64,000 nt of DNA from Antitrichia curtipendula (Eukaryota; Streptophyta; Bryopsida; Hypnales; Leucodontaceae): NCBI GenBank assembly GCA_951230915.1, contig OX579641.1, positions 25,150,254 to 25,214,253 on the forward strand, in the 5' to 3' direction. This document shows positions 12,145 to 59,200 of the stretch, one piece after another. How positions within the stretch are numbered: the first letter of the stretch is position 1; the number at the start of each line of letters is the position of its first letter. The notes under the pieces were generated by a model. That model was not told where the DNA came from and ran no database searches. It saw only the letters and a program-made list of their open reading frames with translations. The position numbers and the translations under genes are program-made.

Positions 12145-12270
12145 ATCGTCAAGTCGACGATGATGTTGCCGTCAAGTCTTGTATCGGTTCGGCTTGTGGA
12201 AGTCTTCTGCAAAGTGAAGCTGAATTGTCGTGCTTGAATATGAGTAGTTCTGTATCGACGAGTCGAGGAT
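12145..12270. repeat. Two imperfect palindromes in P1 intron 1
   Basis: At 12145-12161 arms ATCGTC and GACGAT flank AAGTC. At about 12253-12270 the string ATCGACGAGTCGAGGAT is an imperfect inverted repeat with core CGAGTCG. Both resemble the perfect site at 13728-13750. The equivalent intron of P2 also holds two palindromes, with different arms. Confidence 0.5.
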
Positions 12271-13727
12271 GCCTCCCGCGCAAGTTAATTTGTTGTGTCT
12301 TTGCTAATACCTTTCCGTTCCAATTGCAGAGTTTCATTGACGCAGTCGTTGAGCATTTTCAAAATATAAATCCAGACAAAGATGGTGCCCAAGTAGGTGG
12401 AACTACAGATCTGAAAAATGAGATCCAGATCATCACGCTGCCAGATGCTCTGTGGGCTTACTAGGAACGATTCCTTACAAAGCACGCGGCAGGCAAAATT
12501 ATTGATCATGTGTCCTTGACTCTTCTGAAGGACATGAAAGGATTTAAAATTAAATCAATGTCGCTGAACCGAGAGTTTTTCAAACACTGTGGCTGGTTCA
12601 CAAACCTTGCAATGTTTTTCTAAGGACTTCACACAGCACTTGCTCGGTGAAACACCTAACCGGAAGGCGTTACATCCAAAGGTCTCGCTCTCGAAGACTA
12701 AGATTCTAGTGCCCGACAATATTCCATGTCAGGATTGGGTGGAGAAGAGGAAGAAAAAGAAGATCATTCTGCAAGATCTGATGGTTGTCAAGCCCTCTCT
12801 GGTGTTCCACGACGTTAATGAAAACGTGATAGACGAGACATGGAGGTTGTAGAAGGCGAGACACAGGTTTACATCGGCCACGTGGGATATGCTAATCACC
12901 CTCCCGAAACCCGCGTACTTTGTGAAGCGTCTGAGGAATGATGCTTTTACATGTCGTGCTAAGGATTTAGAGAAGCTCCATCCGGAGGCTTTGTACATGT
13001 TTACCCAATTCATGAAGTTGAAATACCAACTTCCGGAACCTGTAGGAGAGGTTCAGATCAGAGGGCTGGATATTGCTTAGAAGGCATTTGTGACAAGCTC
13101 ACATTACCAGTATCAGCCCCGACAAGTGAATCTTGCAGTTGTTGACATCAGGGAGACGCCGAGAGCAACTGCTACGACTGTCGCTAGCGGCATAGACCCC
13201 TTCCTATACTTGCTCTATCAAAAGATGGAGCCGAGAATGTTCGAGCCAAATGTCTAGCTGTTCCTCTTTGATGACAAAGAGGACCTAAGGGCTGCAACAA
13301 ATTTTGTTGCTCTTAAACTCCATGAATATGAGTACATTGTGTCCATGTACGTACCGTGTAAAGCAAAAATGCTTAACAATGTCACGAATCGGGGGATTGC
13401 TCTTGACGTGCCATTGCTCTTTTTCTTCAAGAAAGATAACGAGTTTGCAACCGCATCTCGATCGCTGATGAAGGATATGTACACAACACCTGCCAACTGT
13501 GTATACTATCAAGATCCCGCAAGGAATACTGAGGCGAAGTGGAGAATAGAGCCAACAGAGCTTCGTATGGAGTTCTACTTGGATATTCTCCAAGCTTTTG
13601 CGAGATCGGGAGAGAATGTTTTAGGTGTCTTCTCCGAAGCAAAATTTATGCTTGCAGCCAAGGTAAGTTGTATTATACATTTTGTTTCTGAAACATTCTC
13701 TTATATGTTTTGATAATTGATTTTGCT

Positions 13728-13750
13728 ACTATCCTCGAGGCGAGGATAGT
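13728..13750. repeat. Perfect palindrome in P1 intron 2
   Basis: Ten-base arms ACTATCCTCG and CGAGGATAGT flank AGG. It lies inside the intron 13663-13822. The corresponding P2 intron carries palindromes with the core GTCGA-N-TCGAC. Confidence 0.75.
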
Positions 13751-14461: not shown

Positions 14462-15283
14462 GTTTGGAACTAACACATTTCAAATTCATACGTGGATGAT
14501 CTCTTCCGTCGGGAATGTTCCACCACCCGCGGCTGTTGGCGAGGCTGAGTCTGAATCAGCTGCAACTGGCGCTTCTGTTTCTGTACACGCACCTGCTGTA
14601 GAAGATGAAGGAGACTACGAAACGGACACAGAATTTGAGAGGCAGCGCGAGGAAGCCTTGAAAGATCAGGAAAACCGTCTAGACGGAGATTTGCCAATGA
14701 TCGATGTTTCTGGACATGGACCTTCTAATGTTGGACCTGAGGATGTCAGACCTGAGGATGTTGTCATCAAGAGATCCTAGCCCGCTCAAGTACCTCAAAT
14801 CCCAAGGTCCGCCGAAGAAGGACTTGTTGTCCTTAATGACGATGATGACATTGATCGTTCCCATTCTTCAGACGACGACTCCGAAGACGACAAAGGCATC
14901 CTCCGGGTAAAAGAGATGAAGCCTCTCGTTCTACCATCCGGATCAGTTGTCAAGATTGAGAAGGACTTCTGGCAAAAAGACGCGGAGAAACGGTAGAGGA
15001 GAATGCTCCGAAGAAAGGAGAAGGAGGACCTCAAAAAGGAACTCAAGAAGGCAGTGGAGAGCAAGACGAAGACTAAGGAGGAGATTCAAAGAATCAAGGA
15101 AGAGTCCCAGGTGCAATACCTGGAGCTGCAGACTCAAATGAAGCAGCTTATTGCGCAAATGCAACCGACCCAGCCGCCAGCCAATACTAAGGATTCTTCC
15201 CAACATCTGACACCGCAGGTCCCTATGCTCTCCACCTCAGCACCTATCGTTAAGCAAGTGCAAGTACTGGTGTCGGGGCTCCC

Positions 15284-15483
15284 ATATCGTCGAGGCGAGG
15301 ATATAGAGGTTCACGCCTCTACGCTCGTGCATGTCGACGTGGTGGCGTGCACCCCTGCATCCCAGCTGTTAAGTGTCCCTTCTCCACAGGACGGAGCCTT
15401 CGAGGTGAAAACCTCTGTTGCCATGGACGTCTCGAAGCCGGGCTAGAAGACAGGCGAGGTGGAGCCTCATCCTCGACTCGAGG
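15284..15483. repeat. Two further P1-type palindromes in the 3' coding part
   Basis: At 15284-15304 arms ATATCgTCG and CGAgGATAT surround AGG. At 15471-15483 CCTCGA and TCGAGG surround C. They share the ATCCTCGA/TCGAGGAT arm sequence with the intronic site at 13728-13750. Confidence 0.55.
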
Positions 15484-15675
15484 GTGCCCCTGATGTTGGG
15501 GAGGCAGTTGGCGCAGCGGCCAATGCTGTAGGCGTACCGGCCTGTGGGATGTCCTTCGAGTCGATGCCTTCTCCAATGTCCGTGGATGAAGAGAAGGTAG
15601 ATTACGAGGCTAGCGACGATGAAATCCGTCGCAATGTCGCGGAGGGGAGAGAAGCAGGGAAAACGACGATGGCTA

Positions 15676-18600
15676 TCTTACGCGTAATCTAGGTGTAAGC
15701 ACCTTTAACACACAATTGTGGTTAGATGACACGAAATATCGTCCCAGGGACTCTACTATGTTGTTATGGATTTGGATTTGTTCGGATTATCTCAAAAACA
15801 ACCCAAAGGAACCCACAATCTCTTTTCCTTTTTCTGGATCCTACTTCTTTTCGGATTCTGATCCGGATCCGTCCTCTTCCGGAATCCGGATACAATCACT
15901 CATCGGTTTGTTATACCCCTGTTTTACCTTCAGGGGGTCCGCTTTTGCTCTTTAAAGAGGCAAGGACTCCACCACTTATCAATCACACACTCTAACACCT
16001 ACAAAACAATCCAAGACACTCTACAGATCTAAATGTTGCGACGAAGTAGGTTTCTGTCTCCTCACGACTTTTCGGATGGCCTATCCGGGAAGCAGATCAC
16101 ACAAAATCTGGTCTCTCGTCTCCACTACAATGACAGATATATAATCATTCGATTTAAACACACGAGAAAATCTACGAGAAAGTAGTTGGTGCTGTAGTTG
16201 GCAGATCTTCCGATAAGTGGGGATTTTCCCCTTGGCGGCCGTTTCTTCGCACGGAACTAAGATTAGTTCCGGAACCTCACCCTCTCCACTCCAATCGGAT
16301 TACCGTTCCAGTAATTTAAAGACCTTAAATGCACAAGTCCTACAAATCCGACCTAACTCCTTCAAAGATCCTCTTCTAATGTCTAAATCAAAACAGCCAT
16401 GAATCCGGATTCCTCCTTCCCAGTTCCTCACAACTCACAAAGCACACAAACACACCGCCCAAGTCCTCCAAACAATACTTAGAACATGGAAAGTCCACTA
16501 AGTGGCTCAGATCAAAGTAAGAAACGTGAAATGAATATTGAAATTGCATAAGGATGGAATGAATGAGCAACAGACCTGCTCACCATTTAAAACCAAAACA
16601 AAAAGGAAAAAAGACAACCGAAAATCAAGCTAACCAACTACAGAAGCATCCGAGATATCCCTAAAATTCCGGAAACGGGCCCACATACGGAAAATCCGTT
16701 CCGAAAAATCCTAAAGTCTAAATTTAACTCCTAAACCCTACTTTCTTCGGCTTCTTTGAGCTGTTCCCGGACTGCGCCAGAGATGTCTTCGCCCTGGTCT
16801 TCGGCAACGGTGTGAACTTTTCGGCCGCACGAGTCGGGATTTTCCGCTTCTTCGGCGGTGAATCTTCCTCCTCATTCGTCTCTGTCGCGAATTCCGTCTC
16901 GAAGTCCTCCTTCTCGGATTCGAGAATCTCCATCTCCCGGATTGGCGAGTCCAAGTCAATTGGCTCGTTGGCAGGCTTCGGCGACGATGGCATCGCAGGA
17001 GTCTCCTCCTGCATGTGGACGAAGTCGTCTGGATGAGTCTTGGCCGGATTCTCCATTGCCCCAATCCGGTTGAGCAAATTACCCTTAATCTGCTTCCCTT
17101 CATCCGGCGTCTGAGTTTGAGTCGACGTGGAAGTTCCGCCCTGCTCTAGAACATTCTGCCTATCTTCCTGATTCTTGGCCGAAAAGTATGTTCTCTTGGT
17201 TAACCATTCCCGCTGCACATGTGGCTTCAAGAGAGACCGCAACCCTCCTGGTTGCAACATGACTGGAATCCCCACAACTGGCTTTGGCGGGGTCTGGAGA
17301 TATGGATTGGTGGTGAGATCCGCTTCCGGAAAGGTCGAGAAGTCCATCGCCCTATCCGGATCGACGCGTGCTACTAAGGTTTGCATCTCCTGGAGCACCT
17401 TCTGCATCTGGGCCTCGAAATCCATAAGGATCATGACGACCTTGGATCTGGCCACGTGTCCCCCTGCTACCAATTGGGCGTCATAGAGTCATGCCTTGTT
17501 TACAACGTCCGCTGGTTGTCCAATTAGGGTCTGGAGATTTCGGACATCTGCATGGCGTCCTTCTTGTTCCTCAGGGCCGCCACGCACTCTCCTTGTGCCT
17601 AGTTTTCTGACTTTCCGCCTCCTTCCAGCTTCTCTCTAGAGCCCGGATCTGATCGTCCTTTTGATGGATGATTTCCGGATTTGGCCTCTGCTTAATCTCC
17701 TCGATGATTTCTCCGGGTGGCACGTTCAGCTCTATCGCCACCTCCTCCATGAATTGGATGGCCTTGTGGTGCAGGTTCCAAGCCTAGTGCATCCAATCGA
17801 ATCCGATGTCGAAGAATTCCCTAAGAGGCGGCTTCTCCTCTTCCGGAACTGGGCTTGGTTCCCGCGGTTCCGTCTCAGGTTGCTTCCCCCGTGAACCCGG
17901 ATCCGTTGACTTCCACCTAGGCTTCTTCCGCTCTAAAGCTCCCTCTTCCGGATCCTCTTCTTCCTTTGGCATCGGCTCATCCTTCTCCAGTTCATCCGTA
18001 AGTTCGTACTTGACCAGCTCCAATCCGGTGTTGTACACCAACATCTCGTCCGACGTCAATACGTCCCCGTGGTGGTAGATATAGAAGAGGTAGGGGCTGA
18101 TCGGGCTATACCAGCTCTTGGACACATGATCCGCGAGCTTTGACACCACCTATGCTATGATACGTCCCCAATGCACTACCCTTTCTTCCAACGCTCCAAA
18201 AATGGTGTTGGCCATCGTAACTGTGACATGGGTAGGTTTATCCGAATACAGTATAGGGATAAGAAAGTTTAACACTCGTTTATGGCGCTCATCCACGCAG
18301 TCACTGATCGCATAATCTTCCTTCGCGTGAGGAGGGTTCCGGAACTTTCCGGTGGCGTACTTATCCACCCGAAAGGCAAACCCGTCTTCGAATTTCCGGA
18401 ACAAGTAGACTTCTGCCCATACGTCCTCCGTCCACCCCTTGGGCTGCCCTCGCACCATCAGTTCGTACTGGTTTGAAGTCCCGTTGATCAGCTCTTGGAT
18501 CAATTCCTCCCCTCTCAGATTCCATGGCCGCTCGATCAATCCGGCACACCCTAATTGCTTCAAGTCCTGCTCTAACTCCTGTCAAGCGGTGGGATCAATC

Positions 18601-19290: not shown

Positions 19291-19299
19291 TCGGACGCC

Positions 19300-19306
19300 A
19301 TAAATA
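19300..19306 (+). promoter_or_regulatory. TATA-like box of Q3
   Basis: ATAAATA follows the GC-rich array, about 275 bp upstream of the Q3 ATG. It occupies the same relative position as the TATA boxes of Q1 and Q2. Confidence 0.4.
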
Positions 19307-22632: not shown

Positions 22633-24664
22633 CTATAGTTCTAAGAACTTTTGATCCCACTGATCAAAAAATGGAGAAGCGAAATTCCTGGTCACAAGTC
22701 CACTGTGTGTTTTGGTCTTTCTTACTTCCAGGGCAAGAGGTCGTGGCCGAGGAATTGAGGGCACATCAGACTGGATAGCAACCTTCTCTTTGCACAATTC
22801 ACGTGGCACTTCTAACATTGGTGACAATGCTAACACTAGTGACATGATGTTCTCGTACAATTTCCTCTGTGGTGTTCTGTCAGAGGCAGACGGTGACGTC
22901 TGCGAAGCGAAAACACCTCTAGAATTTAGTGGAGAAGGGGAGCAGGATTTAGACAGATGAGGAGTTCCACTCGAAGGACTATCTACCACACCATCCTCAA
23001 GAGGCCTAGGAGAATAATCCATCATGGAATTAGCTGTTGCCGCCGAGCAAAGGAAGTTTCCTGTACTCAGAATTGCGTTTTGTCCATAGTCTAGGATGGA
23101 ATCAGCCGACGCTGTACAAGTGAGGCTAGCATTCATGACCGGAGACGGGGAGAAACGCAAATTTCTGAGAACAACACACAGTAAGAGATATTATCACTTG
23201 AGATTAACAAAGCAAAGCCCACAAAATAAATGCAGTCTCAAATATCCTAGGCGAAGGCAGCAGACCGCTCAACAAGTAAGATGGACAAGACTTGAAACTA
23301 GAACAGAAGTCATATTTGAAAACCATATCAAATCATTTTATTTCATAATATATGTGGATACAATGCTGAACGAGTACGTGAATTAGTACGTGAGATAATG
23401 ATTCATGTATCAGATCGATGCAAGCTAAAGCGCACAAGAATATACATTTGCTTATTTAGGTGCCTAATAGATCAAGCCGAACTGAACTATACTATTGATA
23501 CATACACAGCACTATCCTATCGTAAATTCTCTGAAACTTGCACTGCATTCAAAATGTTGTTGTATGTGCGACGACTTCGTTCGTCGCAGAGCATCCTCCT
23601 CCCAATTTTCTCTTTGCTAGTCTCTCGGAAGGACTTCAATCTTATGTCCCGAGCATTTGTCAGACACTTTAACCACGGCAACAAGACGTCAAGCAGAAAT
23701 GTGTCCTTTGGACCATTTCCCTTGTAATTCCAAGAGTCCGGGAGAATGACATTCTCAGTCTTGTTCATCACGTGCTTCACTGGGCTGTCATCAACTGCAA
23801 TTGCATTTTCATGGTTGAATTTCCCTCGGAATCCCATGAACAAGGTACTCATGTTCTTGAGGAAGAGATCTTTATTTGTGTCCGGTTCACTAAAAGTCCC
23901 GATGCACCCGAAATCATCTCTGTATTTTAGTTTCGTGCACAAGTCCTGTCCGAGAACGAACATTGGATACTCCTGACCCTCAAATAGGTACAAGCAAACC
24001 TCTTCTGTGGTGGACTTCTTCATTGAGCTCCAAATAGAAACAAATGCTATGCGTCCTAACTCACGGAGGAACTCAACGCAATTTGGGCGGACCCAGACTG
24101 CTTTCGGTCCCACTAACGTCAGAATGGTTGCCGAGTGCGGCTGTGACGCATTATGGGCGTGAAAGTACGAGCCCTTCGACTTCGCATCTTCACACACACA
24201 CAGAATTCTATTCAGGTCCAGGACAATGTTGAGCCATTTCTCCGGCACCCTGGACGTCAATGGAAGGTCTACCTCCTTCGATTTTCCTCGAGGACATGGA
24301 ACATCTAGTCCCTACTATCAAACGTACAAATGTGCAGCTAGTTACTACGCTGCACTGACACATTTCGACACAATCGGGACATCAAGGAAGAACAGAAGTG
24401 GACGACCTACTGTCCAAATAAAAAAATAAAATGAACTTATGAACACCGCGATATTATAAGGCATGAGAACGTAGAATACCTGCTCTTTGGAAGAAGTGGG
24501 ATCCTGAGCAGGCTCCAGATTTGGAATCTCCAAGAGCTTCGCGTCCGGAATAGAGGTGTCATCACCAAAAGGCCCACGATTGTCCACAGCAGCAATGCTA
24601 GCATGTGGATTTTCAGCAACAGGGATACGCTCTGGAGATGTTGGTGGAATCAAGACAAGTGCCT
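22633..24664 (-). pseudogene. FCP1/SCP-like (NLI-interacting factor) HAD phosphatase, interrupted at the 5' side by LTR-B
   Basis: Exons read on the minus strand: about 24664-24481, about 24317-23530, and about 23165-22633, joined by AT-rich introns. The middle exon has the FCP1-homology fold: NIVLDLNRILCVCED (motif 1, usually DxDxT/V), FVSIWSSMKK (motif 2 region) and AIAVDDSPVKHVMNKTENVILPDSW, typical of the conserved D-(D/N)-x-P...N...P..W end. Motif 1 reads DLNR, so the second catalytic Asp is Asn and phosphatase activity is doubtful. The C-terminal exon is Ser/Pro-rich. The first visible exon begins after a TGCAG acceptor, 28 bp from the LTR-B solo LTR, so upstream exons, if any, lie beyond 28081. 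It could be a pseudo-enzyme or a dying gene. Confidence 0.6.
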
Positions 24665-25004: not shown

Positions 25005-25254
25005 CCTAGGACCTCCTCAGTCACTCTCCATTTCCAAACGCTGTTTGGTGAGAGTGTTTCTTTGCGCTCCTCGTTTTCAGTGTTGCGTGAGTGTGCGAGT
25101 ATTAGAGGTGTGCTGCAGGATAGGTTTCCGGTTGCGTACCGATCACTGCGCAAGTTTCCGGTTGAGATCGGAGAGTGAACGTGAGAACGGGACGTGCGGC
25201 TAGGACTGGGTGAGGTAGATTCGGAAAGGAACCATCTAGATCTAGTTTGTGTCC

Positions 25255-26892: not shown

Positions 26893-28251
26893 AGTAAGTT
26901 AGGTTTTTGTAGGGTAGGACAAGAACGGATTCAGATTAGTAATCCAATCCGGTAGTGTTAGGACAAGTTGGAAGTTAGGATCCGGATTTAGGTTGACTTT
27001 TAAAGGCACTTTTGCCTCTTTTTTTTTTTTGGAACTTCTCAAAATGTATATAAGTCAGTCCTTGTGCTGAGGACTGGGAGTCTTTCCTTCTACATTTTTT
27101 TGTGTTTTCTCCTTGTGCTTTCTTGTTGTACGTTCTCCCATGTTTTGGCAGGGTTGTGCGTGAGGGAGTTTGGAAGGCGCGAGCGGATGTGTTGGGAATT
27201 TCTCCCCTTGGTGTTTTTCTTGGTTCTAAGTGCATGTGAGCAGATAGGATAGAGTTGGGAGTGAACTTCAGTGCCTCAGCGCGTCTAGAGTTTGAGATTC
27301 CGGGTGAGAAAGCCATTGTTAGGCTAGGCGGATAAGGAGGGATTCCTTACTCGCGCTAGAACTCCTGGGTAGGATATCCGGTCGAGTGTCCGATCTCTTG
27401 TGAGGTCTCGCCATCTTAGCAGTAAACGAAAGAATTCTAGTTGACGTTGGAACGGACGGGTGCACTTGTAACCCCCTTAGCTTCGCACGGATTAGGATTG
27501 CATCAGGGTTGTTGTAGTATTAAGAGGATCGTACGGGGGGTCTTTGTGTGACCAACAAACCGGATTGCTATCTGGACTACTGTGAAGGACCAAACCGGAT
27601 CCATACTAGCTTAGGAAAGAAGAGATTAGGAAAGTGGGTCTTCAACCACTATAAGTCACAGAAGGTGTGGTGGGCCTACCACTCTCAAAAGCAAGCGGCG
27701 AACCCTCTGATGGCTAAACAAAGGTAAAACCAAACCGGATAGGAGAGGAAATAGTTGTGAGTTGTCTAGAACGGATTGGTCTAGACGGATAGCAGGACCC
27801 GAAGGGATATGATCATGGGGTTTTGCTAGATTCGATAACCGGAAGACTAGTTGGAATCGGAAGAGAGAGAGAGTCTGGTTATTAGTTTTTTGGATGTTTG
27901 TGTTTCCGGTTTTAGAAAGAGGACCGGAAAAGATGGATTTTACTACTAACTTGGCTTAGTTCGTTAATAGAGTTAGATACTTCACAGAATCTCGTGGGTT
28001 TGATCTTTAGAGTCACTTAGTTATACTCTAGGGTGATTTTTGTGAGTATAATGGGGAATTTACCTATCCTGTGCTGTGACAAAAGAAATCTGTGAGACAT
28101 CGGTGTATTTCATCATATCGAAATGAAGTAAGTACAAAATTGATTTTCAAAATGAAAACTTAGTGGTTATGTCCACTACTAGTGCTCTGCCAAAAAATGA
28201 TTGTTCGTCAACCTGAAGATCTACATCCATGTTCATACTATTCTACAAATC

Positions 28252-28266
28252 AGCTCGAGTCGAGCT
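28252..28266. repeat. P2-type palindrome at the 3' end of P2
   Basis: Arms AGCTCGA and TCGAGCT around a central G. The core TCGAGTCGA is shared with the other palindromes of the P2 locus. Confidence 0.55.
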
Positions 28267-29346
28267 AAAACTATACAAATGACATCGAGCGATATTTACA
28301 AATTAACCTGCAAGGGGATCTGGACCGGCCAGTGGAGCACTCTGTTGGTCTACATTGATAGCGGTGTGCTCTTGGGCCATCATCATTGGGGACGGAAATG
28401 GTTGCAGGCTTACTACCAGCAACCTCGCCATGCACTTCCAAAGGATTCAAATCCTCTGCAGGTGGTGCCGGTGTCTCCGGGCATGCGGATTGAGGAGGAG
28501 GCGAGGCGGGTACCACGAATTCTCTAGTCAAAGGTGCAAGTGGAAGAGGAGGAGGTGCAGACATGATTTGTACTCCGGGCTCCACCAATAAACTTGAGGA
28601 TCCAATATTATTGGATCCTCCTGTTGGACCCTAGAGGAGCAGCTGCTGACCCGCCGGTTGCATAGACGCGAGAGGTTGGATTGCACCCACATGATGCATG
28701 ATGGTCTGAAACTGGTTGGCAAACTGCTGTTGTTGCACCAGGAGCAACTTCTTTAACTCTTCCATTTGCCTCGCATTCTCTGCAAACATCTCCAAGTTGG
28801 ACCTGCGGTCGTCTATCCGGTCCTTCCTGAGTTGTTGAATCTCCGCCTCTCTGATGTCGTCTTCCTCATTCATCCTCCGCCTCTTCTTCTCTCGGGCTGT
28901 GGGCGATGGCTGTGTCCCTATGAGCTGTCCGGATGAAGCCGACGATCCCCAAATGCTCTGTGAAGCAATAACCGTGGGCGTTGTCTGCTCAGCTGGTACG
29001 TCGTAATCGTTGACATTGTCGTTCAGCTCGTGCTCACTATCCGACGAGATATCTATACTCTCATTTGTTGCAGGCTGCGACTGCCTGGCTGGTGTCCAAC
29101 TGGCTTCAGCCGCCGCCTTCTCCTTCCGCTTCGACGATGACAGTGTCCCTGACCGTTGGGGTCTTCTCGGATACATGGCCTCGTCAACAAAATAGCCAGA
29201 TGTTAGGAAGTCGTTCTTGTCCAGAATCTTAGCTGCACTCGCAATTCTTGTCCAGTCGTCGGATTCATCCGAGTCCCCCATCGCAAACACTGTGAGCCCG
29301 CTCATCTGACGGAACGACACATACACAGTCAATTGCATAATTACAA

Positions 29347-29413
29347 TTCAGATCGGATCGAGCTGAACAACGGTGACAATTGCATACTTACGATTCAGGT
29401 CGACTCGACCTAA
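29347..29413. repeat. Two P2-type palindromes in P2 intron 2
   Basis: 29347-29367 is an imperfect palindrome with ends TTCAG and CTGAA. 29394-29413 has arms TTCAGGTCGA and TCGACCTAA around C. Both are in the intron 29461-29306. Confidence 0.65.
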
Positions 29414-30750
29414 TTGAAAGACGGGATATATTACCAATGAACGTGAATGGGAGTATTACTTATCATTGCAGCACACGTGAATTTAGACCCGGCAAAGAGT
29501 GACAGAACGTTCACCCCAGGCACGCAAAATTTTTGAAGAATACGGATATAGAACTCCATCCGCAGCTCTAAATTTGTTGATTCTGAATTTGAGCTCATTG
29601 TACAGCCGCGGCTTCGTGTATGTATCTGTATTCGACGCATCATACGATGCCCTGAGGTCGACATAGCTTCTGTTGCTCGGGCTCTGAAGGAATGTGAGAT
29701 AAATTTTCTCGCCCGCCTTCTTGTTGGTAACGGAGTAGTCGCCCATCCTCTCTTGACTTGCTGGCATGTAGTCCGAGAACGTCATCTTGTACTCCTTCAG
29801 CACATTATTCAACTCGATGTAGTGGAGAAGCTGCGTGTACTCAGTGAAATCTGAAGCTATCAGAAGCCAATTGCGGACGTCCTCAAGGTGCAGTTGACCT
29901 TTCTCCTGGAATGATTTTAAGGCAGTTGTGAAGAACGGGTAAGATGGCGTGCACTTCTTCTTGTTCAGGACGATAGGAGTGTACCTCACGTCCCGTACAC
30001 CAAACGCCATGTTCTTCAAGTGCTCGACAGTCATCGCCCCCTTAGACCAATCTTGGTGCTCTTCTGAATTTATGTCATACGGTCGGTAGTAAGCGACAGA
30101 CATTGGCGGGACGAAGTTATTCCTGCGCTCCAGGAACACCTTGAAGAATTGCGCCGCGAATGGTGACATTTCGTGAACTGCCTCCACTTCTCCACGTTCA
30201 ACTTGTCCACGGCGTTCATTAGTCCCAGTGTCGTGTCTACGAGATGCAGTGCCCGCTTCACAAGGTATTTGCGCTTCCGACGCTCGACCCACTCCTTGCA
30301 TGTGTAGCAGCTCTCGAGCACCCCCGTGATGAGTTTTATTGTCACCTTCGGATACTTCTTGTTCTTTCTTCCTGGCTCTTGGTGCAGGATGTGCTTGGCC
30401 AGCTTCGTCAGGTCATACAACGAGAGATTACCAAGCCACTTGAAGAATTCGTGGGTCAAGTTCCCGCTCTCTGGCTTCCAGGTTGTTCTCGCGTTGAACT
30501 TCATCCGAGTGTCTAGGTCCATGAGCTCCTCGTGCGCTGTGCTTGAAATCACCTCACTCCAGAGGCTGAAAACTTCATCAGGAGCGGTTATTATCTTGAG
30601 CTCGTTCACAATCTTCAGTTTCTCTTCTGTGTCTTTTCCCTTTGCTGCCTTCTGGGCCTTCACAACATCAAGCATGGCAAACCGCTTGTACATTGCCAAG
30701 GAGAATTCCTGCACAAGCGTCATGCATCACAGAGCAGTTAGTACGCATGA

Positions 30751-30836
30751 TTCAGGTCGAGTCGACCATAATAGTACTCTTGCTTAATGATGCAGATAGA
30801 GTATGATCTGTATGGTTCAGGTCGAGTCGATCTGAA
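30751..30836. repeat. Two P2-type palindromes in P2 intron 1
   Basis: 30751-30766 reads TTCAGGTCGA G TCGACC. 30816-30836 has arms TTCAGGTCGA and TCGATCTGAA around G, differing at one pair. Both lie in the intron 30844-30709, the equivalent of P1 intron 1. Confidence 0.7.
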
Positions 30837-32323
30837 GTGCATACCTTGAACATTGATTTATTCAGTTTGTTGTCCGCGTTACGCCTGGCGTTGGACTTCT
30901 TTCCAACCGGTGTAGCTTCCTTGGGATTTCTGGATCTCCCCATAATTTCCCAGACCTTCCTCGCTCTGAGGATGTTAGTGGACCACGACGGCTTCATGGC
31001 TACGAAGTGATTCACTCGGTTGTAGTACGCGGAGATGGCACGGAGCTTTTCACCATTTGATGACCAGACCACGTAGCACTCCCACTGGCGGAAGTGCTTC
31101 ACAATCTCTTCGTCTAGTCCCTTTGCTACCATCAGCTTGCTCGCGGTTACACTGTGTTGGCCGTTGATGATGTAGAACTTGTTGTTCTTCAGCAGTGGCC
31201 ATTGTTCGGGTGTGGGTTTCTCATTCTGATCCACGGGCATCACACATAGTGTTTGCTTTGTGGACTTGTTGGGCATCTCCCACAGGAAGGTCATGACGTC
31301 CTCGGCCAATCTTTGCTCATGGCTTTGTATGTTAAGGTGTGTAGGTGCCTCACTCAATTGGTCGATGGGTATCATCTTTTTCTCCTCCCTGTCGAAGACG
31401 TATGCATCTGTGCAATTCTTCCAGTACGCTTTGTACGCAGCCGTGGATGCGTCGTAATCATGTTTTCGCTTCGAGTCGTACACGGCAAGTACGTCAGTCA
31501 CCGCGGACACGAAGCTTTGTTCTCCAACTGCAGATGCGCTAGCGTCCTTGTTGAATGGGACGATTTCTGACAGCGATGCCAGGTTGCTTTTCCTTTGGCT
31601 AGAAAGAGTTGCACCCGCTTGCTTGCTCCTTTTTGTACCGTGACTTTGTTGCGTTCCTGGAGTTCCCATTGACCCCTGCCCTTCTACTGCGCTTGGACTT
31701 TCAGTGGAGACCGACCGTGGAGTCATGTCCTTATGCTTTGCTTGGAGTTTTGCCTTCAAAACAGCAAAGTCGACGAAGAGAATCCTGAGCTTAGCACACA
31801 AGCTCTTCCCTACTACAGTCCTCCCACTTGCCATCTTGAAGAAGCCGAGGTCAACTTTCTTCTCTAGTTCTGGGATCTCTGTCCGGTAGTCCGTTGGTTC
31901 CAGTGACCTGATGAAGTGCGAGATGTTGAACTCTACCTTCGAGGAGTTAAGAACCAGCGTGAAGTGATACTAATCTTCTTCTTGTACTCCTGTCTGTGCT
32001 ATCTTGCAGTGAATTTTTATTATTGGACCGAGGTCGTGGACGATTTCCTTAATTTCTTCTTCGTAGGATATCGGGAAGTACGGCTCGGTTTCCATATACT
32101 TCACGGCGAAGCATATGATGTTTTTGAAAGGTATCATGTTCAGACTCCAGTACTGAACCCTGTCCGGGTTTTGGAACTCCCAGTACTCCCAGTACTCCCC
32201 TTCCTAGTCGAAGTCATCTCCGTCCTCCTCGACATTGAAGTTCTCGCATCTCTTGTAAAATGCCTCCAGCTTTGATATCTGGTCTTCCATCCTGCAGAAC
32301 ATTGTTGACATACGCTTGTTACA

Positions 32324-33060
32324 TTCAAGTCGAGTCGAGCTGATTATCGCGTGTCGACAATTTTATCAAGACTACGCATCATTCACGCATTGTCTCCTTT
32401 CGCTTCTATTTATTGTCTGATATCATGATCCCTCGGGGTATGTACTATCCTGGGCAATTGTTTTAGATCGACTTGATCTAATCAGGATATTATTCACTTA
32501 ATTTAGTCAATGTTTTAATTGGTTAAGTGTTTGACTTTCTCCTATTCTAGTTCCTAGTACATGTTTTGTCTATTATTTGATCTTATTGATTTCACTCCCC
32601 GCTCTCTATATAGGTTGTGTTATTTTAGATCGGGTCGACCTAAACTTTGTTTTAGATCAGGTCGATTTTGTTTCCTTTTCGGTTGGTTTTTTGTCTTGTT
32701 TGTTATATGATGTTACCTGTCTCTTAGATCTGGTCGACCTATACGTTGTATAGCTGATTTACTTGGTTTGACAGTGGTCATGGACCTTGTTTGCTGATTC
32801 GTTATTCAGGTCGGGTTGACCTGAATGCCTTATTTCTTTGTATTTTTGCTTTGTTTTTCTCGTTCAGGTCGATTCGACCTGAATTGGTGTTGATGTTGGT
32901 TATTTTTTTGGTCTCTGCGATTATATTTGGTTTGTTCTGTCGCGATTTGGTTTGTGATTATCACAACTGATGTCTTTTCAAGTCGGGTCGACCTAAATAA
33001 CATTACTATTACTTTAATTATTTTATGCATTCCTGTTTTTGACCTTGATAATCGACCTGA
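32324..33060. repeat. Cluster of about nine P2-type palindromes upstream of P2
   Basis: Sites start at about 32324, 32463, 32624, 32651 (half), 32724, 32804, 32863, 32976 and 33047 (half). The best, 32863-32883, is perfect: arms TTCAGGTCGA and TCGACCTGAA around one base. 32624-32644 has TTTAGATCGG and TCGACCTAAA. Spacing is irregular (about 40-160 bp) and the sequence between sites is unrelated AT-rich DNA, so this is not a simple tandem repeat. Confidence 0.75.
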
Positions 33061-34780
33061 ACTGTCATCGATCTGACCTGCGTATGATTTTTATTTTTAC
33101 TAATCCCTAATCTGAATTTCTAGAGTTTCACTGAAATAAGTCCCTACACTCTCACGCTAAACCCTAAACCCTAAGCAAACAACTGATGCATACCTGCAGT
33201 TAAGAAGGTTATGATGTCCTTGATGTTGCGAACTGAAACCTGCACATTTGAAGCAATACAAGCTTTGAGTTCCTGTTAATCAAGGAGAACAATCCCTCAA
33301 TAAAAATCTGTAAACAAATTTGAGCAAATTCATGTATCCACGGACTCCGAGCATAATCGAATTGGATGCAGGTTTAAGAAAACTAAGAACACAATGTTCA
33401 AAAGACACAACGTTCTACGTTTTCCCCATTCCACCACCTCCACCGAGAACAATCTAAACCCGAAACTTCGCACCAAAGTAGAATCCAGGAGGAACAAAGC
33501 ACGAAGAACAATCTAAACCAAAAATCTGAATGCAGTCTGCAAGTTCTAAGAAAATAGGAAACACATTCTTCACAAGGTTTAGGGTAAGCCAAAATCCATG
33601 AATACAAAATCAAAAACTCTAAAATCGAGCACCCGTGAATACAAAATCAAAAACTCAGAAATCAAGCGCAAGTGTATGACAGCAGAAGACAATGTTACAA
33701 AAACAGAAACTCGATGCAATACCTGACTTCTTCTGCGAATTCGACAAACTCAAATTCGATGCACTCTTCCGCAAAATCACACGCGCAATATCCCTCTTCC
33801 GTAGAAGTCTTGTGATCCTCTTCCGCTCCTGATGAAATCACAACACCCGACGCCGCGCACTCTTCCGCAAAATCTGATGCCCCCGACGCAGCACGGAGTC
33901 TGTCTGACGGTGTCCCTCCTCCACACGCACTCTTCCGCAAAACAACACAGACGCACTCTTCTCTAAAAATCACATGCCCGACCCTCCAACGGTGTCCCTC
34001 CTCCGTCGAATTGTTGTAGGCGCACCACGAAGCAGAGTGAGGAGGAAAAGAGGGGATCGAAGTCGCACAAATGCAGCCGTACCACAAAGCACAATCCAGA
34101 AGACGGGATCGAACTCGGACAAGCACACAGAGAAGAAAAGAAGAACGACGAGGAGCACGCAGCACGACGAGGACGCAGGGAAGAGGGTATCGACGAAACC
34201 CTAGGTCATTTCTTCGAAAAACCTGTTTCGGGAAGCCAAAACCAAAATCCGGGCAGCCAAAGCTTATACTCAGAAGCCAAAGCCTTACCCGGGCGCTAAA
34301 ACCCTTACCCTGCAGCAGAGAACCTTAACATGGAGCGAAAAATTTACCCGGCAAAACATACCCTTATTCAAACCCTAAACCTTACCGAAGAGCCCAAACC
34401 CTTACCGGGAGCACAAACCCTTAACACTCGGAAGCAAGAAACCCTTACCCAAGTGCACAAATCCTTATGTAGGAGCACAAATCCTAAACACTTATCCATT
34501 TTATTAGAGCAGGTCTTTAATCCTTACACAACGAATATAGATGACTATAGAAATCATCCATTTTCATCACCGTCGGAATCATTCATTAGACAAAGGAATA
34601 CAAGATGCACTCCTCAAAAGTGAAATAGTTGTAGCGTATTTACTCTATTCAGAACCAAATGTTTGGATCATTCAATTACTGCAGTGAATACTCCCCAAAA
34701 CATTCTACATTATGCATTTCATTAGAAAGTTAAATTATGAGTTAAGAATTAAAAATGTTCAAAGAACTATAAAAGAACTA
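33061..34780. other. Non-coding region upstream of P2 with short direct repeats
   Basis: At 33760-33960 the string GCACTCTTCCGCAAAA occurs three times with further partial copies. At 34215-34500 degenerate units around AAACCCTTACC recur about ten times. A short telobox run (CTAAACCCTAAACCCTAA) is at about 33168. The frame 33695-34165 on the minus strand follows the repeats and is not supported as a gene. Confidence 0.45.
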
Positions 34781-44000: not shown

Positions 44001-44330
44001 ATCATTCCAGAATTCACTCCACGAGGACTCTTGTCCTGGTCTGGTCATCCTAATGGTTGGAAGATTTCCCTCCAAAATCTGTTGGCAGATCCAGTCAAAA
44101 GAGAGTGAAACATCCATTTCTCCCATGGATCTGTCTTCTGGAGGTATACTCGGAACCTCGACCAAGGGTTCTTCCGTCGCGATTTCCAAGGTAGGTTCCG
44201 GAAACTCAAAATCAGTTTCCGTCACAGACGTGAAATAACTTGGGACAGAATCGGAATCTTTTGGATCTGACCAATCGGTGGTGTATCCGTCTGATTCACT
44301 GGTTTCTCCATATGGTCTACATGTTTCCAA
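41091..44330 (-). pseudogene. Gypsy pol: reverse transcriptase, RNase H, integrase, broken
   Basis: Reverse transcriptase shows SFLDGFSGYNQV and the polymerase motif FIDDFAVF. RNase H has TLDASGWCLGAILWQ, a conserved STTEREALVAIYA and HTDHDSLKYL. Integrase shows the HHCC zinc part (HSGPSGGH...CDKC), Asp in WGIDFIGP, Asp in LELVSD and Glu in ANGLTERANGIVEKS. No chromodomain. In-frame stops: TAG 43425, TAG 43338, TAG 43218, TAA 43116, TAG 42123, TGA 41799 and TGA 41376. Four of them fall where gypsy reverse transcriptases have Gln. The frame is shifted relative to the upstream gag-protease frame, with an overlap at 44222-44330. Confidence 0.85.
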
Positions 44331-47925: not shown

Positions 47926-48729
47926 TTGACCTGAAATATTATAATTTTGGAGAAGATTTAAAATTTAAAAAAAAATTTATTAAATATTTTATTAAATTTT
48001 ATTAAAAAAATAATTTTTGTAACCCATTACCGTGGTTTAGAAATGTTTTGAAGTGATTTTCCAGGCGCTAATGGGTGATGAAATTCCCTCACATGAAAGA
48101 AAATGTTGAATTTTGAGAACATCTCTAATCCAACTTAAGAATGGAATTGAATACTTCATACCGCTGATTGGATGAACATTTTTGGATGATATATTTTGTG
48201 GATGTACAGACTTTTTACATGTACGACGTTTTGGGTACGAAGTTTAGGATTTCATCCATTGTTGGAAAAACAACTCAATGAACCACATAAACTTCAATGG
48301 GTACAAAAGGTGAACCTTGGATGACAAGAACCCATTAGATATTACACTGAAAAATCTACCTTCTGTTGCATAAGATGGATTAGTGAACTACAAGATCTAA
48401 AAGAATGGATAAAACATTCTTCTTTACCAAAGAGCGTTTTAGGCCCATTATGTAAGAGAATATATATATACTTTTTTTGTATTTTTCTCTTTCCCACGAA
48501 TGGAGAAAATAGGATTTTATGTCCAGGAATACATCATTTATGCTCTAGTACAATTTTACCAAAAAAAGAACAAAAACACGTAACTTCACAAGTTCATTGT
48601 GAAGGCCAAAAGGCCTCCTCGGTGCCGAGGAGGCCTTTTGGCCCTCCCAATTTTTGAGAAATCCTAGACATAAGCAATAAAAAAGGGGCAATGACTTGCC
48701 ATGACTATTATGACCAAGAAAGAAAAAAC
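47926..48729. other. Non-coding 3' region of the second SWIM transposon
   Basis: AT-rich with no supported gene. The only notable structure is the long palindrome at 48604-48643. Confidence 0.4.
48604..48643. repeat. Perfect 40-bp palindrome
   Basis: Two 19-base arms (GGCCAAAAGGCCTCCTCGG and its complement) flank TG. It lies about 90 bp past the SWIM gene stop. The inner CCTCGG-TG-CCGAGG resembles the repeats of the P3 locus (CCTCGGTACCGAGG at 58676). In RNA it would form a strong hairpin. Confidence 0.85.
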
Positions 48730-51700: not shown

Positions 51701-52346
51701 GTAGGTACTTGACCTTTTCGCAACGTAGAGTATCTAGATTTAAGAACTTCAGGTCATTCTTCCCACATGGTCTAGTTTGCAATTGCCTAAGGCACTCAAG
51801 AACGGAAGAGGTTTCTTTAGAACGAGGTAAAGGCGGTCGGGAATTTAGCGAGGGCAAGCTCAAGAGGGATTGCGATCCGCTCTCTTCAGGTTCTACGACG
51901 GTTTCATTGATAGGAGAGAGAAAAGAATACTTCGGGACTCAATATCTAGGAACAACATCGTCATCAGATGACTCACTCAAAAGAATGGTGTCATTCTCAG
52001 AGCCCTCAAGCTTGACAGAAGCTGGGAATGATGTGTGGATTGTGGACTTCCTAGACTCTGGAGAAAAAATTGAAGGACTGTTCATTGGATAGCCCAGAAC
52101 TCTGAATTTCCCAACCGGAAGTCTCCAGGTTAGCTCTCCATCCTTAATTCTTTTCTTCTGCAATACTGTTGAAACTACTTCTACACCTTGGGCATCATAA
52201 ACTTCCTGCTCTAACCACATGGATGTTCGAAGTAATCTAAAGCGTTGAGAGAGCATTGTTTCGGAGATCCATACGACACCATCATCATCTACAGGAAGTG
52301 ACAAAGGAACAGAGCCGTCCACACCGTGAATGGAGGCCATGGTCAT
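48730..52346 (-). pseudogene. MULE-like transposase with SWIM zinc finger, broken
   Basis: The frame starts at about 52346 (MTMASIHG...) and ends at 48730. One intron (about 50270-50165) has GT-AG borders. The N-terminal half has a Cys/His region (CVGHLQCKNTACPRL...CIHIGTHQHPI), which may be a DNA-binding zinc fold. The DDE core shows MFDHVKRVRGWTTMAAHVYD and GFMADSAQANWNAV, each with a candidate catalytic Asp. The C-terminus carries SWIM (CTC in SCTCEDF, CKH in VNCKHLYYVY). Breaks: TGA 51939, TAG 50709, TAG 50304, TAG 49342. It is a close relative of the gene at 2-1132, which is intact over the shared part. MULE assignment is from motif order, not from a database match. Confidence 0.75.
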
Positions 52347-52972
52347 AATGATTGAGTACAGGATATTGGATCGCAAAGATGTCGTGCTTTGTTTGGAGGC
52401 CTTGTCTTGTAGAGAGTGTAGCATACTTGAGGGTAATGGAATTGTGTAGAAGATCAAATACTCTGGAGCGGTTAAACGAAAACAAATTACATTACTGAGA
52501 AAATAGGTATGTGGCAATTTAGGGTGATTTAGTATCTTGGTGAATTTTAATTTTAATAGAAGTGGCATATGGCTTCATTCAAATCATGGATGGCCTGTGG
52601 GCGGCTGTCAGAGGTGTTTAAAGAGTGCCGTTACAAAAATATAGTTTAGATTTGGTAACATTTAGAATTCCAAGCAAACTAGATAGCAGGAACGTTCAAA
52701 ATGCAGTCAGGCATTGATGAATTTGGTTTTTGAAAAGGTATTTGGCGGCGTACTAGTTAAATTAGTGACTATAAGCTAGTTAGTAAGAAGTCAGTTACAT
52801 GGCAGTTTAGAAATTAAAAGTGGAAGACTAGGGATAAGCAGATGATGCAAGCAGTTATGTGGGTCAATAGTAGTAGCCATATAGGTAGGGAGTAATGCGA
52901 GAAGGTCCACAGAGAAAGTCACAGAGGAGAGGTCTCAAGTTTTCCACTAGAAAACAACTTTAGAATTCTAGA

Positions 52973-54990: not shown

Positions 54991-55259
54991 GTAAGACGCA
55001 GTTACATTATCCATGAACGTGTTTATGCTCTTCTAGTATTGGTGGTGTCGCAAGCTATTCGAATTTCGAGGTACAAAGTCCCAATGATCTCCTTGTTCTG
55101 ATGCACATTTCGTAAAGTACGCGCTAGGGTATTGCGAAGTGATTGATCTGAATCACGTTGGATTCCTCGAATGTTAGAAATTGTAGTTACTCCCAGGTCG
55201 CTAACAGCTTTCGATGCAACCCTAAAGCCGTTAATTTTTGATTTTATCCTGCTCAACGG

Positions 55260-55850
55260 AGTCCCCCTTCGAACGGAGGATCCACCGAGGGGGGTCACGA
55301 ATTTTTCCATGACGAAGGCAGGCAGTGCAAGCTTGTGCCCGGTGATGTGGAGAATCCCCGCGGAGACCCCCTTGGCACCGAGGATCTGCTTGGGGGGGCT
55401 CACGAATTTTAGCGTGACGAAGTCAGGTGGTGCAAGCTTGTCCCGGGTGATGTCGAGCATCCCCGCGGAGACCCCCTTGACACCGAGGATCTGCTTGGGT
55501 GGGGGCTCACGAATTTTAGCGTGACGAAGTCAGGTAGTGCAAGCTTGTCGCGGTGGATGTGGAGCTTTTTTGCGAAGATCACCTTGGCACCGAGGACCTG
55601 CTTGTTGGGGGATCACGAATTTTTGTGTGACGAAGGCAGGTGGTGCAAGCTTGTGCCGGATGATGTCGAGCATCTCCGCGGAGACCCCCTTGGCACCGAG
55701 GATCTGCTTGCTGGGGGGATCACAAATTTTTGTGAGACGAAGGTAGGTGGTGCAAGCTTGTCGCGGTGGATGTGGAGCATCCCCGCGGAGACCCCTTTGG
55801 CACCGAGGATCATCTGGGGTGGCTCATGAATTCTTTTGCGACGACTCGCC
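55260..55850 (+). repeat. About 106-bp tandem repeat, five to six copies, in the putative P3 5' intron
   Basis: The marker ACCGAGG recurs at 55284, 55377, 55482, 55589, 55695 and 55802. Each unit contains CCCTTGGCACCGAGGATCTG, CACGAATTTT, TGACGAAG and GTGCAAGCTTGT. The plus-strand frames over it (55171-55829) reflect the repeat. CTTGGCACCGAGG is an imperfect version of the palindromes at 58676 and 48604. Confidence 0.8.
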
Positions 55851-56251
55851 GGAAATGCTGGCGTGACCGGGGTTCATAGCTGTTGAACTTTAGATTTCAA
55901 CGATAGAGATCATCAAGCACTCCTTGGCACAATGGGCAGATCGTGATGAGACTGGGCTACCAAATCCATGAAAGTTATCAGTCGTCTATTTTTCCTTCAG
56001 TTTAGTATTTAGAATGAGGAATCTCATAATATTCTTCTTGTCCCAGTCTTCGCAGTCCTCTTTGGCAGCGAGGTTGATATTCCAAGTTGATATTTTATGT
56101 TTGTGATACACTGGCGATATTACCTTATGAGCGCTTCTCGTGGCTCAATCCAAGAAGACTCATTTCTGAGCTGCAAGGATTCACTATCATCATCGCATCC
56201 TAATATAAACTGGTTTCTAATCGATATTGTTAATATTTGGTTGTTTTGTAG

Positions 56252-59200
56252 ATGGGAGATGAAGAAGCTGCTGCGTGTGAATCAATCTCTTTGGGCGATG
56301 GTTCTAAGGTAAGCTTCTGTTTGCATTATATCAGATCCGGACAACAAGAAGATGGTGTATTGTTTACTTACTAATTGGCTGCTTCGATAACGTTGGGACA
56401 GATGGAAGTCGAGATGAAGGAGCCAGAGCATATGTTGTTGCAAAATGATGCCGATGACGGTGCTGTGCAGCTACAGCCAATACATAGTGTCGATGATGAA
56501 GACGTTGGAGCTACAAGCGGTGGGGTGTCTGAGACACTTTTGGAAGCCCCTGGTGTCGAATTGCAAGACCTCCTGACTGTGGGTGAAGAAACTACACCAG
56601 GAAATGAGGAGAGTTTGGCAAACGATATGGTTGCTGGCCTCAGCATTGATGAGGCAAAGAACGCCTTCAGGATGAAGGAAAAGCTTGATTCCATTTCTAT
56701 AATACAGCAATTGCGATTCAAGCCAGTTGATTCCTCTCGCTTGAAAATTCCACTCTGTCGAATGATTCCACCGCCGTTGGTTCGACCACTTCTTCACTCT
56801 GATGTTAGGCGTTTGGAGGCGGAGTTTGTACATGGCTATCGCGAAGGCGACCGGGTGTTTTACGTATCCATATCAGATGATGCAGGGAATTCTCAACTCG
56901 TTACTGAGGAAATTATGGGGAGTTGGGACTCGCATTGGCATATAGAGAACAAAGAATTTGAGCGCCAATTAACTAAAAATGTTCACTTGTCTTCTCTATC
57001 CGGCCATATGTTCTTTATCTGGGATGGGAACCATAGGTTCCAAGCCTGGAGTAAGTATATCTCACGATTGCATTCTGATGAGGCAGAGTGGCATTATTCC
57101 GTGGACTCTATACTCCTCACATCCAAAGGCAGTACTGGAACTCTTCTGAATGCAATGAACGACGTAAACAGGTATGTTTATCTAAATTTTCTTCTAAGCT
57201 CATTTTGTGTCATTGTTTTTTATTTAATGACTAACTCGTCTGGACTATTTTCTAGGTCCACAGAGAATGCACATGTCAAGACAAACCTTGTACATAAATT
57301 GCATCGCATAAGTTCGTATGGGGTTTTGAAGTTACCTGATTTCAAAGAGTTACTCACAGAGGATGAGTACAAAGCCTGTGAGAATCGCCCAAAACCATAC
57401 CCATGGTATCCAGTTACTTCCGATGTCTTTATCAAATTCTTGAATCGGGTAAGAATTTTTCTCACGCCAATATGTTATGTTGAAGTTCTTTTCATAATTC
57501 TTGGAATGCAGTCTTATTTGTGACTTCTTATTTGCAGCAAGATGTCTCTGCCGCTGCGGATGAAGCCGCGAGAATGTATATGGAGAAGACAGCAGAGGCA
57601 GACCGTACTGCTCGTGGTATACACGATGCAATGGAAAGTGCCTCACAGGCAAGAGTGAAGTCCTACCGATCCGAGTTTGACAGAATGATAAGTGTGGTAA
57701 ATCCCAAGTATGGCCCCAAATTCCTAGAAGCGGTAAGCAAATTTTTTGTTATCATTTTTACTCACTTTACTGGGAGATGTGTTCATGATGAATGTGCACT
57801 TTATGCAATTCTACTGGCATTCCTGGATTTGTGATTTCTTTCCGACAACAAGAATTGAAATAATAACAATTGCATTTGTATTATAGACCCGGAATTCTTA
57901 GCTTCAATTCTTATTTATAATTTGATCCATAAAATTGATATTCTGTGGAATTACAGAAATTTGATGAAGTTATTATCTATTAACCGATGAATCCTTTATG
58001 TATGAATTCCAGATTTATTACCACTGGAGCCAGTTCGAGAAACCTGAGATGTCACTTGAGAAACTCCAAAAGATTTCAGCGACAATTGTAGAACCCCAGT
58101 TCAAGGTGAAGTGGTTGAATTGGTGGAACTCTGGAGATTTGAATCATCTAGCATTGCGATTTCCTGCAGTTGGTGTCATAGACGATAAACTCGAAGTGTG
58201 GTTGACGAAGGCTGCTTTCTGGGCTTAGGTAAGGTTTTTCAATTGAAATGTTTCCTATACATAATCACCTGATCTGAGCCGCTAGATAGTATGTTAAGGT
58301 ACTTGTACTTGTAATGCTACTAAATTGTTTATTAATTGTGCTTGTAGTTGGAATTTGTCACCGTTCAAGCTGTGAACGAGACAATGAAGTCAGAGGAGAT
58401 TATGGTGGACTGGAAAACAAGAGATGATGTGGACGAAATTGAAGAGTACATTGAAAAATATCGCATAATTTTGTGGGATCACGCTTTTTTTTTTTTTTCC
58501 AAAAGTCAGGAGAATACTCTCGATCAAAGCCATTTCTCTCTCAAGATGGAGCTAAACGAGCAATGCAACATCTGCAGTACCGGTGAGTTTTATTGTGACC
58601 TTCTCAAATGAAATTTCATGTGACCGAATGTGGATCAAATGTTAGATTCTCGTAGCCCCTGGATATTGAATGGATTCCTCGGTACCGAGGAGGCTGTTTC
58701 TGTGACACCCGTAACTAATTGCTGAACTGGACTGAACAAGTTAAATTCCTGTAATGGGATCCTTGGTACCAAAGAGGCTGTTTTGGTGACAACCGTGACT
58801 TACGGCTAAACTGGATTGGACAAGGGGAATTTTTGTAACGGGATCCTTGGTACCAAAGAGGCTTTTTTGGTGACACCTGTAACTTACTGCTGAACTGGAC
58901 TGAACAAGGGCAATCTCTGTAGGTCTACACTTTGGGAGGATTGACTGCTTTGAAGTTGTTTCTGTGTTCAATTGTTGGAGGTCCATGGCCATTTTTTGTT
59001 GGAGTGATTTTCTAGTTTAATTTCAATGACGAAGCTGATCTTCTTGTGTTGACTTGAACGTGTTGAATTCTAGACATCGACAATGGATAACAGAGTAATT
59101 AGATAGTTTTGTGTTGTGTCACCATCAATGGCTTACTTGATACCTCAAGCCCTTACGTTCTTAGCCGATTGGAATTAACAAATTGTTTTCTAACCTTGCA

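Follow-up and report, generated by a model that had tools for sequence, protein, structure and literature searches.

The 64,000-nucleotide stretch of the moss Antitrichia curtipendula analysed here (contig OX579641.1, positions 25,150,254 to 25,214,253; hereafter the window) contains two loci, P1 and P2, which belong to one multi-copy plant gene family as diverged and broken members; the family is also present in other mosses and in environmental contigs. Short palindromes, with a different word at each locus, crowd their introns and flanks. These palindromes may, to judge from sequence, be DNA sites at which the gene's own protein binds as a dimer and marks its own gene or element, a reading to which we give a probability of about 0.6.

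The P1 and P2 loci and their palindromes

At P2 the exon boundaries are a model built in this analysis. Its exons share 22-57% identity with moss relatives, and at least two stop codons and two frame shifts interrupt its reading frame.

32292..33193, minus strand: P2 5' intron, predicted from splice-like ends alone; seven palindromes, two of them weak
30845..32291, minus strand: P2 exon 1, N-terminal region and ParB-like domain (NGQHS); two in-frame TAG
30709..30844, minus strand: P2 intron 2 (GTATGC...GTGCAG); two palindromes inside
29464..30708, minus strand: P2 exon 2, helical region and degenerate methyltransferase-like domain; two frame shifts
29306..29463, minus strand: P2 intron 3, donor now ATAAGT; two palindromes inside
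28631..29305, minus strand: P2 exon 3, end of the methyltransferase-like domain and low-complexity region
23520..24311, minus strand: P2 NIF-phosphatase-like exon; Pfam NIF 2.2e-14
about 22852..23121, minus strand: probable last exon of P2; L001 match 33% over 92 amino acids (aa), E 1.5e-5

Exon 1 is homologous to the moss protein P0001 (37% over 433 aa) and also to P0013, whose C-terminus matches the NIF exon (41% over 258 aa). The contig L001, introduced below, matches the NIF exon as well (44% over 253 aa), and its exon 3 matches P2 29308-29105 (35% over 68 aa, E 6e-7). Exon 3 and the NIF exon are set apart by other sequence, among it a repeated open reading frame (ORF), the copy at 25600. 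The P1 locus is likewise broken, and its two introns occupy the positions of P2 introns 2 and 3.

11346..12122, plus strand: P1 exon 1, ParB-like domain (NGQHS), stop-broken; P0076 61% over 260 aa
12123..12329, plus strand: P1 intron 2 (GTATGC...TTGCAG), position equal to P2 intron 2
12330..13662, plus strand: P1 exon 2, helical region and methyltransferase-like domain, with stops and a frame shift; P0051 63% over 351 aa
13663..13822, plus strand: P1 intron 3 (GTAAGT...TTTCAG), position equal to P2 intron 3

The P2 word TTCAGGTCGA-N-TCGACCTGAA (full form TTCAGGTCGANTCGACCTGAA) has ten matches at up to four mismatches in the 64 kb, all of them in 28249-32997; 300 Markov-simulated windows averaged 0.043 such matches and never had more than 1. 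None of the ten overlaps a modelled P2 exon; with the P2 span taken as ~25% non-coding, this amounts to ~1e-6 for even placement of sites, a rough figure because the limits of the last non-coding piece were set close to a site. At up to seven mismatches the excess shrinks to 25 matches (12 in 28249-32997, three at 23276-23486 and ten elsewhere) against a simulated mean of 14.3 for the whole window. The three weak sites in 23276..23486 compare with a simulated mean of 0.047 and were never equalled in the 300 simulations, for a region that was chosen post hoc.

32977..32997: P2 palindrome, 3 mismatches to TTCAGGTCGANTCGACCTGAA; P2 5' intron
32863..32883: P2 palindrome, perfect; P2 5' intron
32805..32825: P2 palindrome, 2 mismatches; P2 5' intron
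32723..32743: weak P2 palindrome, 7 mismatches; P2 5' intron
32624..32644: P2 palindrome, 4 mismatches; P2 5' intron
32462..32482: weak P2 palindrome, 6 mismatches, 8/10 pairs symmetric; P2 5' intron
32324..32344: P2 palindrome, 3 mismatches; P2 5' intron
30816..30836: P2 palindrome, 1 mismatch; P2 intron 2
30751..30771: P2 palindrome, 2 mismatches; P2 intron 2
29394..29414: P2 palindrome, 2 mismatches; P2 intron 3
29347..29367: P2 palindrome, 3 mismatches; P2 intron 3
28249..28269: P2 palindrome with CTCGA-type arm, 4 mismatches; downstream of P2 exon 3
23276, 23409 and 23466 (23276..23486): three weak P2-type palindromes, 6-7 mismatches; predicted intron between NIF exon and last exon

The centre of the P2 palindrome is odd and its middle base free, with A as the left neighbour in 11/11 sites and T (7) or C (4) as the right one. 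For the P1 word ATCCTCGA-N-TCGAGGAT we find five matches at up to three mismatches, all at the P1 locus (simulated mean 0.283, maximum 2). The P1 palindromes are confirmed as a degenerate family; at four mismatches the excess is lost (6 against a mean of 3.03, maximum 8).

12145..12161: P1 palindrome, 3 mismatches to ATCCTCGANTCGAGGAT; P1 intron 2
12254..12270: P1 palindrome, 2 mismatches; P1 intron 2
13731..13747: P1 palindrome, the strongest P1 site, 1 mismatch; P1 intron 3
15286..15302: P1-type palindrome, 2 mismatches; inside open frame 14997-15446, apparently not intronic
15469..15485: P1-type palindrome, 1 mismatch; just past open frame 14997-15446

The first-pass annotation of this DNA had assigned each P locus, a third one (P3) included, a palindrome family of its own, a proposal that stands for P1 and P2. 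Its tally of about 14 P2 sites is reached only by counting weak or half sites, and the arms ATCCTCG/CGAGGAT, which it had placed at five P1 positions, co-occur in exact form at 13731 only. That the palindromes lie mainly in introns and 5' flank agrees with our P2 model and with three of the five P1 sites, while that at 15286 falls within an open frame. Also borne out is the observation that P1 and P2 introns at equivalent positions carry palindromes with a common inner core (TCGA-N-TCGA) and different arms.

Protein folds and arm types across the family

P1 and P2 combine a ParB-like fold with a degenerate beta-class DNA-methyltransferase fold, and a NIF-type phosphatase is present in P2, Ceratodon relatives and L001 relatives. 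Using a structure aligner, we found the ParB N-terminal fold for the P1/P2 family, in an alignment to M. xanthus ParB that continues into the helical part (to residue 559), and also the fold of beta-class N6-adenine/N4-cytosine DNA methyltransferases. The latter was found with the exon-2 model of P0002, too. As regards the helix-turn-helix middle domain by which ParB proteins bind DNA, that exon-2 model has no ParB row among the 50 matches listed, whichever way the M. xanthus alignment is read. Neither the ParB nor the methyltransferase part had a match in Pfam, in a sequence search of solved structures or in Foldseek at E 0.001, so that the earlier ParB label holds for P1 and P2 by fold and lacks Pfam support. 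The residue after NGQH, which we infer to be the position of the ParB P-motif arginine, is S in 34, C in one and R in one of the 36 motif-bearing proteins. As for the methyltransferase part, catalytic motif IV is found in none of 96 proteins, either as [DNS]PP[YFW] or in the wider form [DNS]PP[YFWH], and its expected position reads mostly D-x-R in 49 aligned rows; motif I is FxGxK-like instead of FxGxG in 47 of these 49, the remaining two ending before the motif. Methyltransferase catalysis is therefore doubtful. One homolog cluster (P0066) alone has 700 member sequences.

Many of these relatives are open frames on unspliced environmental DNA that read a short way into the next intron, and many of the read-through tails encode a palindrome, at the same introns as in P1 and P2. 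Usable tails come from 55 of the 96 homologs, with the clade set by similarity to P1 or P2; the 41 dropped rows comprise eight annotated spliced proteins, 24 with tails shorter than six residues, eight without a landmark and one without an exon end (by eye, words are present in the dropped P0019, P0026, P0036 and P0093, too). Among the 29 P1-clade tails, 19 carry the P1 word, none the P2 word and ten neither; among the 26 P2-clade tails, 17 carry the P2 word, none the P1 word and nine neither. Hence, arm type crosses over in 0/36 classified tails. Since the test back-translates read-through peptides, codon ambiguity favours matches, and exon segments of the same proteins served as control (words matched in 5 and 21 of 1100). 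The S position in words C1 and C2 was fixed after the tails had been viewed, and for this reason we ran a stricter test with the consensus sequences as first written, P2 being trimmed to 17 bases. Here, 25/29 P1 and 20/26 P2 tails are nearer to their own clade's word, three and three are nearer to the other, and one and three are tied. With the variable position as N, the other clade's word appears at up to one mismatch in one P1 tail (P0091) and in no P2 tail.

In a tree of 33 rows (P1, P2 and the 31 exon-2 ORFs that have tails; the 24 exon-1 tails were left out), a branch with 100/100 support separates all nine P1-type from all 13 P2-type rows, and the 11 rows with neither word fall on both sides of it. 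A correlation between arm sequence and protein phylogeny, which the first-pass annotation had put forward as a check, is thus found for P1 versus P2 by sequence comparison, in the form of a single deep split. The variable arm position can pair in 16/20 informative P1 and 16/21 informative P2 sites, counts that treat near-copies and two sites per tail as separate, and G-C, C-G and T-A versions of it are seen in P1. Relatives that are 32-67% identical in protein keep the same palindrome core.

DNA-level relatives came from a scan of prokaryote genomes: L001 and L002, two contigs from a cyanobacterial bin, carry intron-containing genes of the family and are 79% identical to each other over exons 1-2 and the intervening intron. 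The bin (uncultured Synechococcales AVDCRST_MAG81) holds plant-type intron-containing genes and appears to be contaminated by eukaryotic DNA, which is the most likely source of L001 and L002 because the family genes there have introns. Each contig has eight sites within three mismatches of TTCAGSTCGANTCGASCTGAA (expected 0.01 and 0.007) and no P1-type site at four mismatches. All 16 lie outside modelled exons, namely in introns 2 and 3, in flanks (in L002 also upstream of the first exon), in the interval between exon 3 and the NIF exon (L001) and, in L002, past exon 3. Several of them form perfect palindromes, 23 to 35 bases long. One L001 site (6591) sits inside an open frame (6145-6798) past the part matching the last P2 exon and so may yet be exonic. 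P0046 seems to be the ORF of L001 itself and is hence not independent of it. A viral origin was considered and rejected: two family alignments gave 38 and 12 pattern matches in IMG/VR and no relatives. Exact matches there number none for the P1-type word and one for the P2-type word, a 27-bp perfect palindrome on the contig L003 (2608-2634). Compared with four family proteins L003 gave nothing better than E 0.18, and its palindrome is probably due to chance.

P3 and other features of the window

P3 was rejected as a third family member: its sites are tandem repeats and kinship of its protein is undetectable.

58669..58921: P3 84-bp tandem repeat with CCTCGGTACCGAGG-like core; link to the P1/P2 system not established
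55257..55832: P3 107-bp tandem repeat with imperfect CCTTGGCACCGAGG

The sites at 58676-58860 are three units of the 84-bp repeat (one perfect, two with three mismatches) and those at 55284-55802 are copies of the 107-bp repeat with imperfect palindromes; being repeat units, they are neither independent sites nor independent evidence, and the claim of an own palindrome family fails at this locus. The joined P3 protein had no homolog at E 0.001 among 7986 candidates scored, two pieces of it, compared with the family by profile, reached E 0.21 and 0.47, and the word DGNHR is the sole basis for the earlier ParB reading. A 40-bp inverted repeat with 19-base arms at 48604-48643, whose core is one base off P3 TCCTCGGTACCGAGGA, lies directly 3' of a minus-strand ORF set (48730-52574). 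The pieces of this set that were scanned have no Pfam match; its ORFs may resemble a Mutator-like transposase, in which case 48.6-60.5 kb could form a single element that carries P3 as an accessory gene on the opposite strand.

Elsewhere, the 5' end of the window (2-499) encodes a 44% identical relative (173 aa) of ORF 49342-50328 (matching part 49351-49860), and retrotransposon-like ORFs at 42123-46861 (minus strand) comprise gag, zinc knuckle and RNase H, with a subthreshold aspartyl protease match. The repeated ORF (MPQLRQNRPGPSTS... type) is found at 25246-26892, 61167-62809, 39339-40286 and 17793-18323; relative to the copy at 25600, which sits between P2 exon 3 and the NIF exon, protein identity is 31-89%.

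Candidate sites for self-recognition

To our minds, the palindrome would consist of two 10-base half-sites round one free base, bound by a dimer of the gene's own protein; the odd centre, its free middle base, the A to the left and balanced arm mismatches (A.C 7, G.T 6) favour such a symmetric dimer on DNA over an RNA hairpin. Via these palindromes the P protein would load onto its own gene or element and mark it, most likely for resistance to silencing or for control of its own expression, as VANC does for VANDAL, and introns and flanks would be places where sites can multiply without damage to the protein. An inner core common to both clades, with outer arms that differ between them, is in keeping with two related proteins of diverged specificity, and the different words of the two family branches suggest recognition and marking of its own gene by each protein. 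As the first-pass annotation had supposed, each protein presumably binds its own site. What the sites would do, whether anti-silencing, autoregulation or pairing, is a further inference. A bolder version, which we consider possible rather than probable, sees in P1 and P2 a eukaryotic parS-like self-recognition, in which the product of selfish plant genes, a ParB-type protein whose methyltransferase domain is dead, loads at palindromes in the introns of its own gene and coats or marks the copies against host silencing, with at least two specificities and the shared core [G/C]TCGA-N-TCGA[C/G].

Several of our data weigh against recognition of the palindromes by the gene's own protein. Two of the five P1 sites lie outside introns, 19 of the 55 tails carry neither word, and the link between arm and clade is one deep split (plus variants at one arm position) that does not prove repeated co-evolution. 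Serine after NGQH in 34/36 proteins makes CTP switching doubtful; according to the available part of one report, loss of the P-motif arginine abolished nucleotide binding in a ParB-CTPase fold protein (PMC12704722). In L001 and L002, arms match slightly better inside one site than across sites (p 0.04 for the core and 0.008 for positions 11-17), which independent half-sites do not need and which could hint at a structural or mutational cause. Finally, searches around both P1 and P2 tied no terminal inverted repeats, transposase or target duplications to them, so the mobile-element step is drawn from copy number and precedent. Candidates for terminal inverted repeats were discarded: repeats of at least 16 nt round P1 and P2 are the palindromes and short scattered pairs, and an 18-nt pair that brackets P2 (22231-22248/33748-33765, 83%) is expected by chance in 17.5 kb, with no target duplication outside it.

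Could the palindromes instead be subterminal sites of a separate transposase that moves the element, with the P protein as a passenger? An arrangement with short repeated sites at either end is known from DNA transposons, CACTA elements for example, but we regard this as unlikely, since neither a terminal inverted repeat nor a transposase was found with P1 or P2 and since across relatives the sites keep fixed positions in P-gene introns and their arms follow the clade of the P protein. Pre-mRNA hairpins that control splicing or small-RNA production would account for the many intronic, foldable sites and draw support from the within-site arm matching of L001 and L002. Their role as our first choice was dropped for want of a wobble bias in P2 (although C-to-T decay would blur one), and with a conserved A beside the free centre (in the would-be loop), L002 sites that precede the first exon and P2 arms that do not clearly match better within sites than between them (p 0.06 for the core and 0.70-0.82 beyond it), hairpins now seem distinctly unlikely.

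That the TCGA-containing words are the substrate of the methyltransferase domain rather than loading sites is suggested by the beta-class fold and by the TCGA that flanks the centre on either side in P1 and P2 words alike. Yet the degenerate motifs I and IV speak against catalysis and a 17-21 base dyad far exceeds the usual methylation site, which makes a substrate role very unlikely. Functionless palindromes of mutational or chance origin (quasi-palindrome correction or local duplication, for instance) find some backing in the tandem repeats of P3, in L001/L002 symmetry beyond the core and in a window that is palindrome-rich beyond the P families (49 in a general scan, 28 scoring at least 9 against 1-4 in three shuffles). 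They hardly explain why the same core recurs at the same introns of such diverged relatives, clade-specific and outside modelled exons, and we consider this origin the most improbable of all.

For recognition by the gene's own protein, the closest working analogy is VANC21, a transposon-encoded protein that, in the available parts of the reports, binds short motifs located in the introns and the terminal non-coding parts of its own VANDAL element and removes silencing (PMC5735166; PMC10398659). As far as these sources go, VANC proteins of the Mutator-type VANDAL elements of Arabidopsis share with our case that family-specific short motifs crowd the element's own introns, intergenic and terminal non-coding DNA and that the motif differs between related proteins; P1 and P2 match the intron and flank feature at the level of sequence. 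The VANC21 motif, by contrast, has nine bases in same-orientation tandem arrays, with palindromy not described in the available text (PMC5735166), whereas P1 and P2 have non-tandem dyads of 17-21 bases, and a tandem-repeat scan of the window gave no arrays over their sites, only at P3. ParB and methyltransferase folds set the P protein apart, and anti-silencing has been shown for VANC alone.

Closest by architecture is the accessory protein of Sola1-1_Ec32 from Ectocarpus (1104 aa), in which ParB-like and DNA-methyltransferase-like domains are joined, as they are by fold in P1 and P2, and which was suggested, in the part of the report available, to bind and modify its own transposon (PMC12477816). 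Its gene lies opposite a transposase, while none was found for P1 and P2, and binding sites are not described in that part (PMC12477816). Compared by domain description, the P1/P2 family differs further in its degenerate methyltransferase motifs and the presence of the NIF domain. With bacterial ParB/parS, Noc and KorB the family shares a ParB N-terminal fold running into a helical part and a palindrome in or near the gene; it departs from them in NGQHS (34/36) in place of an arginine-bearing motif and in having several sites per gene, many of them intronic. The P1 and P2 words are not known to be related to parS. The bdelloid rotifer N4CMT (8s9o) likewise has a beta-class methyltransferase fold in a eukaryote; P proteins lack the catalytic motif and have a ParB-like partner domain instead.

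Among the titles and abstract openings surveyed, intronic palindromes are not mentioned and PMC12477816 is the sole description of a ParB-methyltransferase transposon protein. What was already known, from the available part of that report, is that such proteins occur in algal transposons and may bind their own DNA, at sites left unnamed (PMC12477816). What this analysis adds are intronic palindromes as concrete candidate sites, with a natural arm difference between P1 and P2 that makes self-recognition by selfish plant genes directly testable. If true, self-marking by sequence would have a further form next to that of VANC, one based on a DNA clamp of bacterial type.

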